The notes under the pieces were generated by a model, which searched no databases, had not been told where the DNA came from, and saw only the letters and a program-made list of their open reading frames with translations. A stretch of DNA of 64,000 nucleotides from Deltaproteobacteria bacterium (GTDB taxonomy: Bacteria; Desulfobacterota; Desulfomonilia; UBA1062): positions 1-64,000 of the forward strand of contig JAHDOV010000007.1 in NCBI GenBank assembly GCA_018434685.1, read 5' to 3'. Made by a program: the position numbers and the translations under genes. Positions 14,733 through 30,290 of the stretch are shown piece after piece. Positions within the stretch are counted from its first letter, which is position 1. Each line of letters opens with the position of its first letter.

Positions 14733-14830
14733 AAAAAAAATCGCCAGAAGAAAGATTTGAGGTTAGGCATAGTATTTGGAGGGCTATGCCCTTTCTTCTG
14801 GCAAAAGGAGGGCTCTCTGTTGAAGAGAAC
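14733..14830 (-). ncRNA. Candidate small RNA or leader attenuator, CCTCC/T8 element 1
   Basis: Read on the minus strand: GAGAGCCCTCC, then an outer stem GCCAGAAGAAAG/CTTTCTTCTGGC (14791-14802 with 14743-14754). The outer stem encloses an inner stem GGCATAG/CTATGCC whose loop holds CCCTCCAAATA. The outer stem is followed by GA and eight Ts (14733-14740). The T run makes it an intrinsic terminator. CCTCC is complementary to Shine-Dalgarno sequences. It lies about 190 bp upstream of the lipoprotein operon on the same strand, so it is either a free small RNA or a leader attenuator. Confidence 0.5.
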
Positions 14831-22264: not shown

Positions 22265-22630
22265 TCAACCCCCCGAGCGTTTGACCGGATACCCCTGTTT
22301 TTTCAGTTCGTCCACCAGCAGGTCGCGGTGGTCGCCCTGGATCTCGATTGTCCCGTTCTTTACGGTGCCGCCGCAGCCGCACCGCTGTTTCAGCTGCCGT
22401 GCCAGGTTCGCGAGGCCGTCCTGCCCGAGCGGGACTCCGGTGATGATGGTCACCCCTTTGCCCTTGCGTCCCTTGGTCTCGCGGGAGACCCGTACAGTTC
22501 CATCCCCCTTGGGCGCATCATCCTTCGCGCGGCACACGCAGCCGGTGACAGGCCTGCCGCAGGCTGGGCATATCCTGCCCTGTTCGCTGGAGTAGACCGT
22601 GGTGCTATCCCTGTCAGTTTTCGTTGTCAT
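22265..22630 (-). CDS. yciH: SUI1/eIF1-like translation factor (YciH type)
   Basis: 121 residues. An N-terminal zinc-ribbon-like segment (RICPACGRPVTGCVC) precedes the SUI1 domain with the family pattern KGRKGKGVTIITGVPL, LKQRCGCGGTVKNGTIEIQG (split here) and RDLLVDELKKQGYPVKRSGG. Bacterial YciH proteins resemble eIF1 and influence start-codon selection and initiation fidelity. Full length for the family. It sits upstream of the MFS gene with no functional link that I can see. Confidence 0.93.
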   Translation of the reverse strand: MTTKTDRDSTTVYSSEQGRICPACGRPVTGCVCRAKDDAPKGDGTVRVSRETKGRKGKGVTIITGVPLGQDGLANLARQLKQRCGCGGTVKNGTIEIQGDHRDLLVDELKKQGYPVKRSGG

Positions 22631-22891: not shown

Positions 22892-22990
22892 AAAAAAAAT
22901 CCCCTCAGGGAAAGGGGACTTATATAGGAGGTTCTTTGGTAAGCGTAATAATAATAACGGCGGGATGCCGGATGGCAAGGGGCCTGATGA
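22892..22990 (-). ncRNA. Candidate small RNA, CCTCC/T8 element 2
   Basis: On the minus strand a short hairpin TGCC-ATCC-GGCA is followed by an AT-rich stretch, then AAGAACCTCCTATATAAG, the terminator stem CCCCT/AGGGG, and eight Ts (22892-22899). The AGAACCTCC block followed by GTCCCCT...AGGGGAT8 is shared with element 3 at 30183. The unpaired CCTCC could pair with ribosome binding sites. It is about 260 bp upstream of the SUI1-like gene on the same strand, so a leader role is also possible. Confidence 0.5.
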
Positions 22991-23267
22991 AAATTGTGGA
23001 TCTTCACACGGAAGCATACTTGGATGATTGAAGAGCAGTAACTACTCACGCAGTCAGGGTGAAGCTATTTTCAGACTGTTAGGCTGTAGTCATTTAGGCT
23101 GTTAGCACAACATATGAAGATTAAAGATTAAAGATAGAATGAAGGAATTGGCAAAGCTCGTAGACCTAACAGCCTATAGCCTACAGTCTAGATAAAGCAC
23201 CCATGGGCATTTCTTTTGGGGCATCTATCCATCTGAGTAGTTATGAAGTGCATACAGGGGGATATCA

Positions 23268-23408
23268 CACCACGAAGAGCACGAAGGGAGTTCATCGGTG
23301 AGGAGTTCATAAAACGCTGACGCGTACATTCCGTGGCGATGTGCTTCGGGCGGGCATTAAGCGTTTTGTCCTATGATTTTCTACGTGCTTTTCGTGTCCT
23401 TCGTGGTG
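23268..23408. repeat. Inverted repeat with CACCACGAAG arms
   Basis: CACCACGAAGAGCACGAAG (23268-23286) is matched with a few mismatches by its reverse complement ending TTCGTGGTG at 23408. The spacer has no gene. CCACGAAG-type palindromes are widespread bacterial intergenic repeats, possibly miniature-transposon derived. Confidence 0.55.
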
Positions 23409-23608
23409 AGAACAAAGGGCTGTGAAGAAAATGCAAATTATAGAAGTATGCTTCACTGAGAAGAACCAAAAAAACCATCCCTGCAACACCACAATCCTGA
23501 TAATATGTTTTGCATAACATACATGTATTTGCTATATGACCCCGCAGTGGTGCCTGTTTGTTCATGCATCAGGAGATATTCCCTTTGATTCTGAGAAAGG
23601 AATTTGCC

Positions 23609-24643
23609 GTGAAGAAAAGGTTCGAACATCCAGTGCGCAGCGCACTTGTCATGATCTCTGTCATAGCCTTGCTCGGCGGGTGCAGCAATCCTGCAGACCA
23701 CCATGAGGCCTCCCGGACCGTGACGGATCAGCTGGGCCGGTCCGTGAGCGTCCCGAAACACATCAACCGCATTGCAGCCCTCCATCACTTCGGAGGAAAG
23801 ATCGTCTATGCCCTCAAGGAAGAGGACAAACTCGTGGAGCAGGCCCTCTACGGGGTGGATGCCGTTGCCATGGCAGCTGTGGATGCAGCGTTTGCAGCCA
23901 AGCCGAAAACCCTGGACGGCCATGCCATCAATATCGAGGAACTGGTGGCCCTGGCCCCGCAGGTCGCCTTCGTCTATGCCTCGTTCGAGAGGTCGGACAT
24001 GGAACAGCTGGAGAATGCCGGCATCAGCGTCATTGCCGTGAGGGGGGAGACGCTGGAAGAGAGCTTTGAGGCGGTCAGGCTCATGGCACATGTCCTTGAT
24101 TGCGAGGAGAAGGCGGACGCATACTTGGCGGATTGCCTGCGGCTCCTGACAATCGTCAGGGACCGGCTTAAGGATATTCCGAAGGACCAACGGCTCAAGG
24201 TCATGTTCGCCGGGCCCAAGAGCGTCTATTCGGTGGCCACCGGCGAGATGATACAGAACCAGATCCTCGAACTGGCCGGCGCCAGGAATGTCGCTGCAGC
24301 GTTGATGGGTTTCTGGGGCGATGTCTCTCCCGAGCAAGTGGCCGTATGGAACCCGGATGTGATCTTCCTCGGTTCGAGCCTTTCCACCTATGGAATCGAA
24401 AAGGTGCTCAAGAGCCCGCAGTTCGAGACGGTCAGGGCGGTGAGAGAAAAGAAGATCTACGTCTTTCCATCCAATATCGGCTGGTGGGACTACCCGGCCC
24501 CGGGCTGTGTTCTGGGGGTTGTCTGGTCGGCAAAGACACTCTATCCGGAACGATTCAACGACCTGGACATGCTCGCTATCGCCGACGATTTCTACACCAG
24601 ATATCTCGGGCATTCCTTCACCTCCATGGGAGGCAGGCTGTAA
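23609..24643 (+). CDS. ABC transporter substrate-binding lipoprotein (FepB/BtuF type), copy 1
   Basis: 344 residues from the GTG at 23609, chosen by alignment with the second copy (also GTG, same length) and an AAAGGAA upstream. Signal peptide with lipobox LGGC, then TVTDQLGRSVSVPKHINRIA, the usual N-terminal strand of siderophore/haem/cobalamin-binding proteins, INIEELVALAPQVAF, and a C-terminal half with GFWGDVSPEQVAVWNPDVIF. It delivers a metal complex or tetrapyrrole to the permease encoded next, which it overlaps by one base (TAATG). The exact ligand cannot be read from sequence. Confidence 0.88.
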   Translation: MKKRFEHPVRSALVMISVIALLGGCSNPADHHEASRTVTDQLGRSVSVPKHINRIAALHHFGGKIVYALKEEDKLVEQALYGVDAVAMAAVDAAFAAKPKTLDGHAINIEELVALAPQVAFVYASFERSDMEQLENAGISVIAVRGETLEESFEAVRLMAHVLDCEEKADAYLADCLRLLTIVRDRLKDIPKDQRLKVMFAGPKSVYSVATGEMIQNQILELAGARNVAAALMGFWGDVSPEQVAVWNPDVIFLGSSLSTYGIEKVLKSPQFETVRAVREKKIYVFPSNIGWWDYPAPGCVLGVVWSAKTLYPERFNDLDMLAIADDFYTRYLGHSFTSMGGRL

Positions 24644-25737
24644 TGGGGCCTGATTCGATCGTGTCTGAGAACCCGGTTGGCAGGTCACGGTCTGCCCGGG
24701 GATTCGTGATGAGAAACAGGGGGTGGCTGTTCCTGGTATTGTTCTTCGTGGCAAGCCTGGCCGTTTCCCTGTGTGTCGGCCGTTACCGGATCGGTCCTGC
24801 TGGCGTGGCACAGCTCATCTTCTCCGGCCTGGGGCTCGATGGGGTGATGAGGGCCCCTGCCCAGGAGACGCAGCTCATTTTCTGGAATATCCGCCTGCCC
24901 AGGATCATCATGAGTTTTGCCGTCGGATGCGGCATATCTTCTGCCGGGGCGGTTTTCCAGGCCCTGTTCAGAAACCCCCTGGCAGCACCGGACATCCTGG
25001 GCGTGACAGCCGGCGCGTGTTTCGGGGCAGCCATGGCCATCATGTTCTTCACGCACCTGACCCTGGCCATCCAGGGAAGCGCCTTCGTGTTCGGGGTAAT
25101 TGCCGTGTCGCTTGCCTACCTGCTGGCCTCCCGAAGCTGGGACCGCTCGGCAGCGGTCCTGGTGATCTCGGGGATCGTGGTCTCGGCCTTCTTCCAGGCC
25201 GGCCTGTCCATCCTCATGTATGTCGCTAACCCGTATGACCAGCTGGCACAGATCATCTTCTGGATCATGGGAAGCTTCCACGTGGCATCCTGGGCCAAGG
25301 TGCAGACTACCCTGCCGGTCGTTGTGGCCGGAACCATCCTGCTCAGTGTCTTCAGCTGGCGCTTGAACTTGATGACCCAGAACGAAGAAGAAGCACTCTC
25401 GCTGGGGATAGATGTGTTCCGGTGGCGGATGTTCTATGTGGTGACAAGCACGCTCATGGTGGCCATCTCCGTGGCGGCAGTGGGAACGATCGCCTGGATC
25501 GGGCTGATCATACCCCATATCGCCCGCTACCTGGTGGGGCCGGATCACAGAAGGCTGATCCCCGTGACAGCACTGCTGGGGGGATCGTTTCTCATGCTCA
25601 TGGACACGTTTGCCCGTTCGGTCCTGGCCTCTGAGATCCCCATCAGTATCATAACATCCATCTTCGGGGCGCCGTTCCTGGGCTATCTGGTAATAAACAG
25701 CGGGAGTATGGGAGAGAAGAGTGAGCTTGGTAATTGA
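24643..25737 (+). CDS. FecCD/BtuC-type ABC transporter permease
   Basis: Up to 364 residues starting from the ATG that overlaps the preceding stop; a second ATG at 24709 would give the more usual ~342. Around nine or ten hydrophobic segments. Family motifs: RLPRIIMSFAVGCGISSAGAVFQ (in pieces), NPLAAPDILGVTAGACFGA, and the coupling region GTIAWIGLIIPHIARYLVGPDHR (in pieces). It forms the channel for the substrate bound by the lipoprotein upstream and is powered by the ATPase that begins 17 bp before its stop. Confidence 0.93.
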   Translation: MGPDSIVSENPVGRSRSARGFVMRNRGWLFLVLFFVASLAVSLCVGRYRIGPAGVAQLIFSGLGLDGVMRAPAQETQLIFWNIRLPRIIMSFAVGCGISSAGAVFQALFRNPLAAPDILGVTAGACFGAAMAIMFFTHLTLAIQGSAFVFGVIAVSLAYLLASRSWDRSAAVLVISGIVVSAFFQAGLSILMYVANPYDQLAQIIFWIMGSFHVASWAKVQTTLPVVVAGTILLSVFSWRLNLMTQNEEEALSLGIDVFRWRMFYVVTSTLMVAISVAAVGTIAWIGLIIPHIARYLVGPDHRRLIPVTALLGGSFLMLMDTFARSVLASEIPISIITSIFGAPFLGYLVINSGSMGEKSELGN

Positions 25738-26578
25738 GAACCTCTCTGCGGGATATGGCAAGGTACCGGTGCTCAAAGACATTAACCTGCACGTCGAGCA
25801 GGGCAGGATCTGCGCGTTAATGGGGCGCAACGGTTCGGGAAAGACAACGCTGATGCGCTGCATCAATGCCATCTTGAAGCCGGTGCAGGGCAGGGTGAGT
25901 GCGAGCGGCAGAGAGATTGCCGGTCTCAGGAGGATCGAGATCGCCCGGATGATCAGTGTGGTGCCCCAGAGCAGCCACACCGCGTTTCCCTTTTCCTGCC
26001 TGGAGATGATCCTGATGGGGTCTGCGGCGCGTGTCAAGGCCTGGTCGGCACCAGGCAGGGAAGAGCTGCACAAGGCGTTGCAGATCATGGGCGAGGTGGG
26101 TATACAGCACCTGGGCACGAGGCCCTTCAACCAGCTCTCGGGCGGTGAGAAGCAGCTCGTGATGCTGGCGCGGGCATTGTTCCAGGATGCGCCTATCATG
26201 CTGCTGGACGAGCCTAACGCACATCTCGACTTTTCCAACCAGCACAAGATGATGGGCCTGATGCGGGAGGTGGTGAAGAAACGCGGTGTCACTGCCCTGA
26301 TCACTCTGCACGACCCGAATCTCACCCTGTATTACTGTGATCAGGTTCTCATGATCAAGAACGGCCGGGCCATAGCCGAAGGCCCTACCTCAGCGGTCAT
26401 GAAAGAACAGACCCTGCGGCAGGTGCTGGGAGAGAATATTCAGACCGATTTCACCCGGGGGGGTCTCCAGGTGGTTACCCCCCGGCATCGAAGAGGGGCA
26501 ACAGGCCCGACACCCAAGACAAAAGACAAGGAGGCGGATTCATGCGGTGCAACTATTGTGAATGGCGTTGTGAGCTAG
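25721..26578 (+). CDS. ABC transporter ATP-binding protein (FepC/BtuD type)
   Basis: 285 residues from a GTG at 25721 with GGGAGAG before it. Walker A GRNGSGKTT (about 35-43), Q-loop VPQSS, signature LSGGEKQ, Walker B IMLLDEP and switch His in ITLHDP are all intact. It energises the adjacent FecCD-type permease. The C-terminus carries an extra 40-odd residues rich in Arg/Thr/Lys after the normal domain end. This tail overlaps the radical SAM start by 37 bp, so the extension may partly be a by-product of the overlap. Confidence 0.93.
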   Translation: MSLVIENLSAGYGKVPVLKDINLHVEQGRICALMGRNGSGKTTLMRCINAILKPVQGRVSASGREIAGLRRIEIARMISVVPQSSHTAFPFSCLEMILMGSAARVKAWSAPGREELHKALQIMGEVGIQHLGTRPFNQLSGGEKQLVMLARALFQDAPIMLLDEPNAHLDFSNQHKMMGLMREVVKKRGVTALITLHDPNLTLYYCDQVLMIKNGRAIAEGPTSAVMKEQTLRQVLGENIQTDFTRGGLQVVTPRHRRGATGPTPKTKDKEADSCGATIVNGVVS

Positions 26579-27549
26579 GCCCACAACAATATGGCGTTTG
26601 TCAGATGTATTACGTAGACCAGGGCGAGATCAGGGAACGGTTTCCCCACCGGTGGAGTTCCTACTCGGTCTCCAGGATGGAATCGCTTCCCCTCTATCAC
26701 GCCTATCCGGGGGCCCGGTGCATGACCATCGGCACTACGAGCTGCAACTTCATGTGCCGCTACTGTTCGAACGGCTTTGTCGCCCGCAGGGACCCGGCAG
26801 AACAGATAGCCCGGATGTATGTGCTCTCACCCGAAGAAATGGTCAGGATGGCCAGGAAGCTCGGGTGCCACAATATCGTCTTCAACGTGAACGAACCCAC
26901 GGTATCGCTGCAGACCCTGGCGGAGCTGAAGGTCCATGCCGACGAGGCTGGCCTGCCCATGGGATGCCTGACCAACGGCTACACGACCGAGGAATCCACC
27001 GAACTGCTCTGCTCGATCTTCTCGTTCATGAATATCAGCCTCAAGGGGTTCACCCCTGAGTTCTACCAGGAGTATCTCGGGGCCAGAGACCTCGAGCCGG
27101 TCCTGCGCAATATCCGCAGGATTGCCCAGACCTGCCACGTGGAGGTTACCACGCCGGTGATCCAGGGTGTAAACGATGGCGAACTGATGGAAATGGCCGA
27201 CTTCGTAGCCGATATCGATCCGCAGATCCCCTGGCATGTGTTCCGTCTCCTGCCGGAACACGAGATGACCGAGGCCAGATACCCGAGCATCGATGCAATC
27301 AACGAGGCATTGCACGACGTGAGGAAGAAACTCGACTACGTATATTTTCACAATTTCGTAGGTTCGGACTGGGTCAATACGATCTGCCCCGGGTGCGGAC
27401 ACGAGGTTATTGAACGCTTCAGCCTGGGATGCGGCGGCGACCGGTTGTGCGCCTTTGACTGCCAGGACAATCGATGCCCTGTCTGTGGGCAGGAGATCAA
27501 GATCCACGGAACGAGGGTTCTCTGGAATGCGATGGAGGTGGCGAGATGA
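26542..27549 (+). CDS. Radical SAM protein, COG1180/PflA-like
   Basis: 335 residues; AAGGAGG precedes the ATG. The N-terminal Cys set (MRCNYCEWRCELGPQQYGVC: C3, C6, C10, C18) is typical of COG1180 proteins. The radical SAM cluster motif follows in CNFMCRYC (C68-x3-C72-x2-C75), then NVNEPTVS, matching the SAM-binding region. A C-terminal zinc-ribbon-like pair of CPGCG and CPVCG adds further metal sites. It should cleave SAM to a 5'-deoxyadenosyl radical. The target is unknown. Its overlap with both the transporter ATPase and the next gene suggests it modifies the imported compound or activates a partner enzyme. Confidence 0.88.
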   Translation: MRCNYCEWRCELGPQQYGVCQMYYVDQGEIRERFPHRWSSYSVSRMESLPLYHAYPGARCMTIGTTSCNFMCRYCSNGFVARRDPAEQIARMYVLSPEEMVRMARKLGCHNIVFNVNEPTVSLQTLAELKVHADEAGLPMGCLTNGYTTEESTELLCSIFSFMNISLKGFTPEFYQEYLGARDLEPVLRNIRRIAQTCHVEVTTPVIQGVNDGELMEMADFVADIDPQIPWHVFRLLPEHEMTEARYPSIDAINEALHDVRKKLDYVYFHNFVGSDWVNTICPGCGHEVIERFSLGCGGDRLCAFDCQDNRCPVCGQEIKIHGTRVLWNAMEVAR

Positions 27550-28679
27550 GTGTGGTGATTGTAGATGCGCGGGAATGGCAGAATATGCTCGACCTCAGAA
27601 CAGGGAAGAAGATCCAGGTGGACAGCCCTGCTGTTACCATGACGCGCGGTGTCCTGAAGCGGCATCCCTATCCCGGTGACCTGGACCTGCAGAGCAACCG
27701 CTGGGTAACCGACACGGCCCTGGACCTGATCCATACGTACACGCCCCGGCTTGTCTGCCTGAGCTATGCCCAGCAGTACTTCTCCAGCCGTTTCAAGCCC
27801 CTGACCGAGAAGGAGCTGGCACAGATGATCAATGACGTGTTCGAAGAGGCCGAGCGGTTTCTGAACGAATCGGGGTATACCCCGGTCATTGTGGGCACCG
27901 GTGATATGACCGAGTTGGCAGGGGAGATGGAGTTGAGCAAGCTCGACGGACTGGCATTCACGAGCGGGTGGTCTGCCCGGTACGCAGGCCTGCACCAGCC
28001 GAGCATCCGTGACCTCGAACATATAAGTGGGCTGCCCGGATTCGAGCGGCTCGTGAGCCGTGAGGAATGGATCAACCTGTTCGACGCTGCGCCGTATGAT
28101 GCCGAAATCATACCGGATTACCTGCTGGTCGCCCGGGAGGGATGGTCGTTCAGGGCTGCGGGAACCCCGCTGCGCAGGGCGGTGAGGGTGCCGGCGGCAT
28201 GCTTCTCGATCCCGGTTGCCACACCGCTGGGAGAGGCGCAGAACATCACTGGGATCCGCGCCCTGGTCGAGAAAAATCTGGAAAATACGAAGATCGCACT
28301 CATCGTCATCGAGGGCGTGGGGCTGAGGCATTTTCCACTGCCGCATGCCGCATGCTCCAACAGCGTGGACTGGTACTACTACGAACCGGGCGAGGGACAG
28401 TACCTCACCCTGACCACCGGGATCCATCAGGTCTTTACCTATCCATCCGGATACCGGTACCACCAGGAGGACCACGAACAGAAGGAATACCCCCTGTCGG
28501 GTTATTTCACGAAGATGACTGAACACACCCTGGGCGAGGATTTCAACGGCAGGAGTATCGCAGTGGGAAACAGGAGCATGTTCACCCACATGGTCTATGG
28601 GGCGGATATCTCCGTAGAGTGTTTTGCGAGGAATCTCTATAACCAGGGGTGCATGGCCGTTATACACCGCACAAAGTGA
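27546..28679 (+). CDS. Conserved-looking protein of unknown function in the transporter operon
   Basis: 377 residues from the ATG that overlaps the radical SAM stop (ATGA). I do not recognise the family. It begins with a beta-strand, MSVVIVDAREW, has several alternating strand/helix blocks (LVCLSYAQQY, PVIVGTGDM, ALIVIEGVG) and ends VECFARNLYNQGCMAVIH, with no signal peptide or membrane segment. Several His/Asp-rich stretches (HFPLPHAAC, YHQEDHEQ) could bind metal. Tight coupling to the radical SAM gene implies a shared pathway. A weak CGGCC/GGCCG stem follows its stop codon. Confidence 0.75.
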   Translation: MSVVIVDAREWQNMLDLRTGKKIQVDSPAVTMTRGVLKRHPYPGDLDLQSNRWVTDTALDLIHTYTPRLVCLSYAQQYFSSRFKPLTEKELAQMINDVFEEAERFLNESGYTPVIVGTGDMTELAGEMELSKLDGLAFTSGWSARYAGLHQPSIRDLEHISGLPGFERLVSREEWINLFDAAPYDAEIIPDYLLVAREGWSFRAAGTPLRRAVRVPAACFSIPVATPLGEAQNITGIRALVEKNLENTKIALIVIEGVGLRHFPLPHAACSNSVDWYYYEPGEGQYLTLTTGIHQVFTYPSGYRYHQEDHEQKEYPLSGYFTKMTEHTLGEDFNGRSIAVGNRSMFTHMVYGADISVECFARNLYNQGCMAVIHRTK

Positions 28680-28874
28680 GCAGGGCGGCCACAGGGGCCG
28701 TTTATGCCGCGACCAAACTCTCTGCAGCACATGAACGGAGGGGATCGGGTCTCGAGGGCGGGCAGGGCCCGAATATCGGGAATGAGGTCCTGATCCTCTC
28801 TGCTTCTTCGGCCTATCGGGTGACTGATTGAGGGGGCATCAGACTACAACCAGTTCTTGAGGAGGGATTCTGCC

Positions 28875-29909
28875 GTGGAAAAAAAGATCGGACATAGAGT
28901 GGGTACCGTAGTCATCATGATATCCTCTCTGGTGTTTTTCAGCGGATGCAGCAACCACGCTGTCCAGGACGAGGCCTCGATCACCGTAACGGATCAGCTG
29001 GGACGGTCGGTCAGCATTCCGAAACACGTCAGCCGGATTGCGGCACTCTATAATTTCGGGGGGAAGATCGTCTTTGCCCTGAAACAGGAGGACAAGCTCG
29101 TGGAACGCTCCCTGCTGGGGGTGGATGCCGATGCCATGGCTGCCGTGGATCCCAAGTTCGCTGCCAAGCCGCAGCTCGTCAAGGGCAATTCGGTCAATAT
29201 CGAGGAGCTGGTGAGCCTGAGGCCCCAGGTGGCGTTTGTCTGTTCAACGTTTGACAAGTCGGATATCCAGCAACTGGAGAATGCGGGCATGTGCGTCATT
29301 GCCGTGCGGGGAGAGACGCTGGAAGAAAGTTTCGAGGCAGTCAGACTCATGGCAAAAGTCCTCGATTGCGAGGACAGGGCGGATGCCTACGTGGCGGACT
29401 GCCGGCGCCTGTTGGCCATCGTGAAAGAGAGGCTTGCGGATATCCCGAAAGAGCAACGTCTCAAGGTCATGTTCGCCGGCCCGAAGAGCGTTTATTCGGT
29501 GGCCACCGGCGAGATGCTTCAGAACCAGATCCTCGAACTCGCCGGTGCCCGGAATGTTGCGGTGGATGTAAAGGGATTCTGGAGCGAAGTCTCACCCGAG
29601 CAGGTAGCCGTTTGGAATCCCGACGTGATCTTTCTCGGTTCCACCTTTTCCGCCTACGGGGTCGATGAGGTGCTCGGCAATCCCCAGTTCCAGACCGTCA
29701 AGGCAGTCAGGACCAGGAAGATCCATGCCTTCCCTTCCAACATCGGCTGGTGGGACTTCCCGGCCCCGAGCTGCGTACTGGGGGTGGTCTGGTCTGCGAA
29801 GACCCTGTACCCGGACCGGTTCAAAGATCTCGACATGCTCGTCACTGCCGATGAATTCTATACCAAATACCTGGGGTATTCCTTCACGGCCATGGGGGGA
29901 AGGCTCTGA
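28875..29909 (+). CDS. ABC transporter substrate-binding lipoprotein (FepB/BtuF type), copy 2
   Basis: 344 residues from the GTG at 28875, eight bases after GGAGGG; exactly the length of copy 1 at 23609 and very similar along its whole length (VTDQLGRSVS, GGKIVFALKQEDKLVE, QVAVWNPDVIFLGS). Lipobox FSGC. It follows the transporter/radical SAM set but has no permease of its own, so both binding proteins probably feed the same transporter, perhaps with different ligand forms. Lower similarity in the stretch around residues 85-110 may reflect ligand choice (inference). Confidence 0.88.
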   Translation: MEKKIGHRVGTVVIMISSLVFFSGCSNHAVQDEASITVTDQLGRSVSIPKHVSRIAALYNFGGKIVFALKQEDKLVERSLLGVDADAMAAVDPKFAAKPQLVKGNSVNIEELVSLRPQVAFVCSTFDKSDIQQLENAGMCVIAVRGETLEESFEAVRLMAKVLDCEDRADAYVADCRRLLAIVKERLADIPKEQRLKVMFAGPKSVYSVATGEMLQNQILELAGARNVAVDVKGFWSEVSPEQVAVWNPDVIFLGSTFSAYGVDEVLGNPQFQTVKAVRTRKIHAFPSNIGWWDFPAPSCVLGVVWSAKTLYPDRFKDLDMLVTADEFYTKYLGYSFTAMGGRL

Positions 29910-30063
29910 CGGGCACCAGCTGCGCTTATCTGTTTACCGTGGATCCTCCTTCATGTGAGGCCGCAGTGGGAGTCAGCCTCCGGGGGCCTTGTTGTGCTGA
30001 CAGGTGTCGTAAACAACAATGACCAGTAGTGTTTCTTTTCAGTAATCCATGGGAGAATTGAGT

Positions 30064-30207
30064 ATGAAAGGTACGTATCGGGATATAGTCGAGAACCTGC
30101 CTGCCCCAAGCTGTCGCTTTCTTCCCGGCGACGGCACGATAACCCCGGCTAACAAGGCATACCGCGAATGTTTCGGCAGGACAAAAAAAATCCCCTGTTT
30201 GGGATAG
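30064..30207 (+). pseudogene. Remnant of a PAS-domain gene
   Basis: An ATG-started frame of 47 codons reads YRDIVENLPAPSCRF then GDGTITPANKAYRECFG, which closely follows the beginning of PAS domains (ENLP, DGTI, N-AY-FG). It stops after about 40 PAS residues at the palindrome of element 3. PAS domains are about 100 residues, so this is a decayed fragment. GGGAGA lies upstream. The rest of the parent gene is not nearby. Confidence 0.55.
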
Positions 30208-30290
30208 GGGACCAAAATTTGGAGGTTCTCTGGAAAGAGAAGTGAATAGTAGTCTGCTGCCTGCGGATATCAAGGGCAGGATGATTTTTT
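30183..30290 (-). ncRNA. Candidate small RNA, CCTCC/T8 element 3
   Basis: On the minus strand: a CTGCC...GGCAG hairpin, then CCAGAGAACCTCCAAATT, the stem CCCCT/AGGGG, and eight Ts (30183-30190). The last ~45 bases match element 2 closely in order and motif. It converges on the second binding-protein gene, so it is not the leader of any gene seen here; that favours a free-standing small RNA or a terminator with conserved upstream sequence. Confidence 0.5.

Follow-up and report, generated by a model that had tools for sequence, protein, structure and literature searches.

The locus examined here lies in a window of 64,000 nucleotides (the whole stretch of DNA analysed; contig JAHDOV010000007.1, forward strand) from a deltaproteobacterium. 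It raises the question of what two similar elements on the minus strand of this window encode. An original prediction, made from the letters of the DNA, held that they belong to a small-RNA family that silences translation.

Putative promoter, exposed motif and terminator in E1 and E2

The two elements, E1 (22892-22990) and E2 (30183-30290), were found on the minus strand at the predicted positions. Both contain AGAACCTCC (22935-22927 in E1; 30229-30221 in E2), followed by GTCCCCT-loop-AGGGGA, and both end in eight Ts (22899-22892; 30190-30183). Conservation had been said to extend beyond the terminator stem, and in the alignment it reaches AGAACCTCC and the promoter boxes. Each element comprises a sigma70-like promoter, 16-17 nt, AGAACCTCC, a terminator and T8, with no gene between promoter and terminator.

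The promoter-like site of E1 (22978-22951, minus strand) consists of a -35 box TTGCCA (22978-22973) and, after 16 nt, a -10 box TATTAT (22956-22951), with 10 of 12 consensus matches in a consensus scan. The E2 site (30273-30246, minus strand) occupies the equivalent place, with TTGATA (30273-30268), 16 nt and TACTAT (30251-30246) giving nine of 12 matches in the same type of scan. In both elements the hexamer pair ends 16-17 nt before AGAACC. About 1.7 promoter-like sites are expected by chance per kb of region, so a single site means little; two that share both strand and equivalent position appear more telling than one. A hairpin with ATCCG in its loop had been proposed upstream of each element. 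The shared CCCTTGnnATCCG block makes better sense as the -35 region, with the -10 box 16 nt further on, because both scans place the promoter at the equivalent spot and because the weak GC hairpins would fall outside the transcript.

With the 5' end placed from the -10 box, the putative E1 RNA would be approximately 53 nt long (22944-22892) and would read GCUUACCAAAGAACCUCCUAUAUAA-terminator-U8. Its AGAACCUCC segment (22935-22927) has an ACCUCC that is predicted to be unpaired (0.91-1.0), and its intrinsic terminator (22921-22892) is formed by AAGTCCCCTT/GAGGGGATTT and T8. The putative E2 RNA, its 5' end placed likewise, would be approximately 57 nt (30239-30183) and would comprise a hairpin CUCU-UUCC-AGAG, AACCUCC, the terminator and U8. 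The ACCUCC in its AGAACCUCC segment (30229-30221) is predicted to be mostly unpaired (0.75-0.98), and its intrinsic terminator (30209-30183) is GTCCCCT/AGGGGAT with T8. No compensatory changes were found within the pair, whose stems differ only by A-U to G-U. In silico, the identification as small-RNA genes is well supported. In the explanation preferred here, to which as a whole we assign a probability of about 0.62, E1 and E2 would be two short, independently transcribed small-RNA genes.

That the elements are instead ordinary terminators or leader attenuators is unlikely. The intrinsic terminators are clear, and a gene on the same strand, SUI1/YciH, starts 262 nt downstream of E1, which could, for example, act on it. 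No recognised same-strand gene was found within approximately 1 kb upstream of E1 or E2, however, conservation extends to AGAACCTCC and the promoter boxes, and E2 faces a gene end. The SUI1/YciH-type gene itself (22265-22630, minus strand) encodes a translation initiation factor. As predicted, E2 converges on the end of a gene (btuF2, which ends at 29909), and E1 and E2 bracket a btuF-btuC-btuD/radical SAM/btuF locus. This bracketing looks incidental, since the extra copies found in relatives (below) occupy unrelated places.

Other features of the surroundings were recorded. Two BtuF-like binding-protein genes (23558-24643 and 28857-29909, plus strand), 73% alike over their first 300 bases, form the two ends of a single B12-type ABC transporter/radical SAM locus. 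An apparent remnant of a PAS-domain-like gene (30064-30183, plus strand) has 64% identity over 36 residues with part of an intact gene on contig C40 of the same genome. The similarity stops exactly at the start of the E2 terminator, which would fit a disruption of the gene at that point by E2 or by a deletion. Many short repeats, of CTGTCATTGCGAGGAG.. and AGGCTGTAG..TTAGGCTGTTAG.. types, are dispersed over positions 40879-61781, where several longer segments (up to approximately 300 nt) are repeated as well.

A functional plus strand, on which GGAGGTTCT would serve a short gene as ribosome-binding site and the hairpin would lie within the leader of that gene, is very improbable. Exact-pattern matches in distant genomes (L042, L048 and L047) do read GGAGGTTC then ATG at apparent gene starts, and E1 could read TTG plus 31 codons. 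Between E1 and E2, however, there is no matching start codon or protein, and the downstream similarity has a 1-nt gap. T8 follows the hairpin on the minus strand only, the promoter boxes are on that strand, and the ATG opposite the rarA-linked RNA described below meets a stop after seven codons. A tRNA 3' end, a reading prompted by one match (L041), was rejected, as the window has no tRNA.

Copies of the pair and a conserved RNA beside rarA

In BLASTN searches of the 4.29-Mb genome, E1 matched E2 and nothing else, and E2 likewise matched E1 alone (E 2e-5, 79% over approximately 60 nt). The covariance model search suggested with the original prediction was carried out using a model of E1 and E2 (R1), from which one E2 spacer base was omitted to hold the stems in register. 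R1 retrieved only E1 and E2 in their own genome, even at E<=10. In stretches totalling 1.6 Mb (37% of the genome), which also served as the sample for the census and terminator work, cmsearch with this model scored the two at 74.8 and 73.7 bits and the next best match at 20. The pair had no match elsewhere in the genomes of the class or in the 395 genomes of the phylum that were searched, and the idea that it is widespread in relatives was rejected.

Membership of the Rfam families suhB/mmgR (RF00519) or anti-hemB (RF02837), which are likewise short RNAs ending in a terminator, is extremely improbable and was also rejected. E2 scored 25.5 bits to RF00519 and 23.7 to RF02837, far below the cut-offs of 41 and 49.5, and E1 had no match. 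These scores are at background level: suhB scores near that of E2 were obtained in 23 of 60 relatives and in seven of the 14 genomes used as controls, for the most part at plain terminators.

When R1 was applied at a loose threshold to 24 genomes of the window's family, mostly one type of element was returned, which accounted for seven of the ten matches outside the own genome. This core small RNA is approximately 74 nt long. Its 5' hairpin, AGGTTCT..AGAACCT, carries TTCATTCCCC as a loop motif and is followed by CCTCAT and a terminator with T7-T9. A second model (R2) was built from seven core sequences without E1 or E2. It detected the core RNA in 22 of the 24 family genomes (E 1e-10 to 1e-19), including the genome studied here (contig C46, 517678-517753). 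In a phylum-wide draw, no genome outside the family had a match of comparable strength, and weak R2 matches there (E above 1e-3) were treated as noise. Most family genomes have a single copy; G008 has four and G010 five, some of them degenerate. In nearly all the genomes inspected, the main copy lies beside rarA and is transcribed away from it. A tRNA gene follows the core RNA, and this arrangement also argues against ordinary terminators or attenuators. At two base pairs of the terminator helix both partners have changed and still pair; the 5' stem has little variation and no compensatory change. An Rfam scan of five core loci gave no match at the element. The core RNA is thus a strongly conserved small RNA, new to description and without an Rfam 15 match.

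Upstream of the core RNA lies TTAAGT-N13-G(A/T)CGATA or a close variant. It resembles TAAAG..GCCGATAG before a FlgL-like gene of the same genome (named from the protein sequence, not by family search), where the spacer differs by one base, that of the core RNA being the shorter. Of the 24 family genomes, 23 have a FliA that scores above the cut-off of its protein family, and we infer that the core promoter is sigma28-like.

Several observations bear on the relation of E1 and E2 to this RNA. Like the core type, both have AGAACCTCC a short distance ahead of a terminator that ends in T7-T9. The core 5' stem (AGGTTCT/AGAACCT) with its UUCAUUCCCC loop is absent from E1, and E2 has a different short hairpin. 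Neither element has the sigma28-like promoter or the rarA neighbourhood; they have sigma70-like boxes and other neighbours. Sigma70-like promoters were also seen, by eye, at the extra core copies of G008. Of 70 terminators in the 1.6 Mb of their own genome, E1 and E2 rank second and fourth in pre-terminator similarity to the core RNA, the fourth rank being tied with the fifth terminator. The E1 score exceeded those of all 4000 shuffles; that of E2 did not (p 0.013). A degenerate G008 copy, G008d (R2 E 0.0014), aligns with E1 as ACCAAAAGAACCTCCCATTTAA against ACC-AAAGAACCTCCTATATAA, with 19 of 22 columns identical.

R2 gave E2 7.9 bits, which is noise, and did not list E1. The case for descent therefore rests on the short common segment and the bridging copy G008d. 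On this evidence E1 and E2 are probably diverged paralogues of the core RNA. The chief alternative is less probable but carries real weight: that they are small RNAs unrelated to the rarA-linked one, and that CCUCC before a terminator arose repeatedly, an anti-Shine-Dalgarno seed being useful. The failure of the core model to find them fits such an independent origin. Against it stand the common string, which is AGAACCTCC, with ATAT downstream in E1, rather than CCTCC alone, as well as G008d and the ranks of two and four among 70.

A wider set of CCUCC elements in the genome

The original prediction had also named 14733-14830 as a further member. This element (E3, minus strand) is not a sequence relative of E1 and E2 but has the same architecture of 5' hairpin, CCUCC, terminator and U8. 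It comprises a hairpin GUUCUCU-UCAAC-AGAGAGC (14830-14812), CCUCC (14811-14807), a long terminator and T8. The long terminator is formed by GCCAGAAGAAAG..CUUUCUUCUGGC, with an inner hairpin displaying a second CCCUCC. E3 has three relatives in its own genome (L196, L133 and L150). All four copies have GCCAGAAGA..TCTTCTGGC in common, enclosing inner hairpins that differ in sequence, and E3 and L196 are also alike for approximately 100 nt upstream.

A folding-based census of terminators was made in the 1.6-Mb sample, and P values were calculated from a binomial on the genomic CCTCC frequency. Among all 1024 pentamers, CCTCC ranked first in the 16 nt before terminators with a hairpin and T7 (12 of 146, P 1.6e-5; P 3e-4 with E1, E2 and the core RNA counted once). 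With relatives counted once, it preceded three of 22 terminators in a stricter set (P 0.007) and three of 75 in a looser one (P 0.15); the hairpin, T-run and distance limits were the analyst's own choice and several were tried, so all these P values serve as guides only. No such enrichment appeared in 400-kb samples of the genomes G017 or G028. Of the 12 matches, L147, L160 and L166 resemble coding sequence; the other nine comprise E1, E2, the core RNA, the four E3-type copies and two singletons, L187 and L192. L187 (10856-10940 in its own numbering, minus strand) has a hairpin CTATAGC/GCTATAG, ACCTCC, a terminator and T8, with TTGACA upstream. L192 (16480-16549, likewise in its own numbering, plus strand) is an ACCTCC-terminator candidate after a same-strand gene.

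The best explanation is that E1 and E2 are part of a wider set in their own genome that includes E3 with its three relatives and the two singletons, built as hairpin, CCUCC, terminator and U8. E3, its relatives and L187 have different stems with the same CCUCC placement, which again favours an independent origin of E1 and E2. Elsewhere in the class, loci in two genomes of another family (L093 in G036 and L091 in G038) have CCTCCTCAT either immediately ahead of a terminator or within its loop.

For the original prediction, the reading as a small-RNA family holds in silico and is broader than was claimed. The further copies it called for exist: a relative of fixed synteny is present in 22 of the 24 family genomes, and there are more copies in the own genome. 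Compensatory changes were found in the relatives' terminator stem. Silencing is the part that is only inferred.

Possible action on translation initiation

The anti-Shine-Dalgarno tail of 16S rRNA has ACCUCC as its core, and the RNAs would therefore most likely pair with Shine-Dalgarno sequences. The motif is predicted to be unpaired in E1, E2, L187 and L192, and a single-stranded C-rich motif between hairpin and terminator is predicted in E2, E3 and L187; in E1 the motif is exposed but there is no clear 5' hairpin. In the core RNA, folding predicts that the ACC of ACCUCC is base-paired, so this RNA would have to unfold there or act through CCUCAU and the UUCAUUCCCC loop. The exposed ACCUCC may pair with the Shine-Dalgarno sequences of chosen mRNAs, the bases neighbouring CCUCC supplying target specificity, and such pairing would block ribosome binding and silence translation. 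Judged from the exposed CCUCC and from known small RNAs, translation silencing is plausible as the likeliest function.

Extended complementarity of E1 and E2 at ribosome-binding sites was not in excess (7 sites observed against 7.6 and 7.9 expected). An excess of targets for the complement of the core RNA loop (8 against 1.1) was not relied on, as it overlaps the start codon. No Hfq was detected in the 37% of the genome that was covered.

Known small RNAs offer comparisons. In LhrC and CJnc230, such a stretch binds ribosome-binding sites (PMC4132741, PMC11187230). LhrC1-5 of Listeria monocytogenes is likewise a multicopy small RNA that blocks a Shine-Dalgarno sequence (PMC4132741), but it uses UCCC at three sites per RNA, where the present RNAs have ACCUCC, and the organism is unrelated. 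LhrC has a demonstrated target; a sequence relation to it was checked via Rfam only. CJnc230 (FlmE) of Campylobacter jejuni has a short single-stranded anti-Shine-Dalgarno stretch with a stem-loop on each side, an arrangement like the one predicted here (PMC11187230); its motif is CCUU and it is encoded downstream of flgE, whereas E1 and E2 have CCUCC and sigma70-like promoters. CJnc170 (FlmR) of the same species is FliA-dependent (PMC11187230), as the rarA-linked RNA may be. Escherichia coli also has small RNAs transcribed by the flagellar sigma factor, like the putative core RNA (PMC10578931). Those are UTR-derived, whereas sigma28 dependence is here suggested from the motif only, and for the core RNA rather than E1 and E2.

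A more speculative extension, held tentatively, is that several small-RNA types (core, E1/E2, E3-type and singletons) expose a copy of the anti-Shine-Dalgarno sequence and form a network broadly tuning translation initiation. A flagellar-type promoter would then serve the core RNA and housekeeping-type promoters the others.

The small-RNA family is new, and its functional kind is already known. The analysis predicts short transcripts, regulation of the core copy by the flagellar sigma factor, and translation-initiation control via CCUCC. It adds a strongly conserved small RNA and a lineage-specific expansion of candidate anti-Shine-Dalgarno RNAs in one bacterial family.
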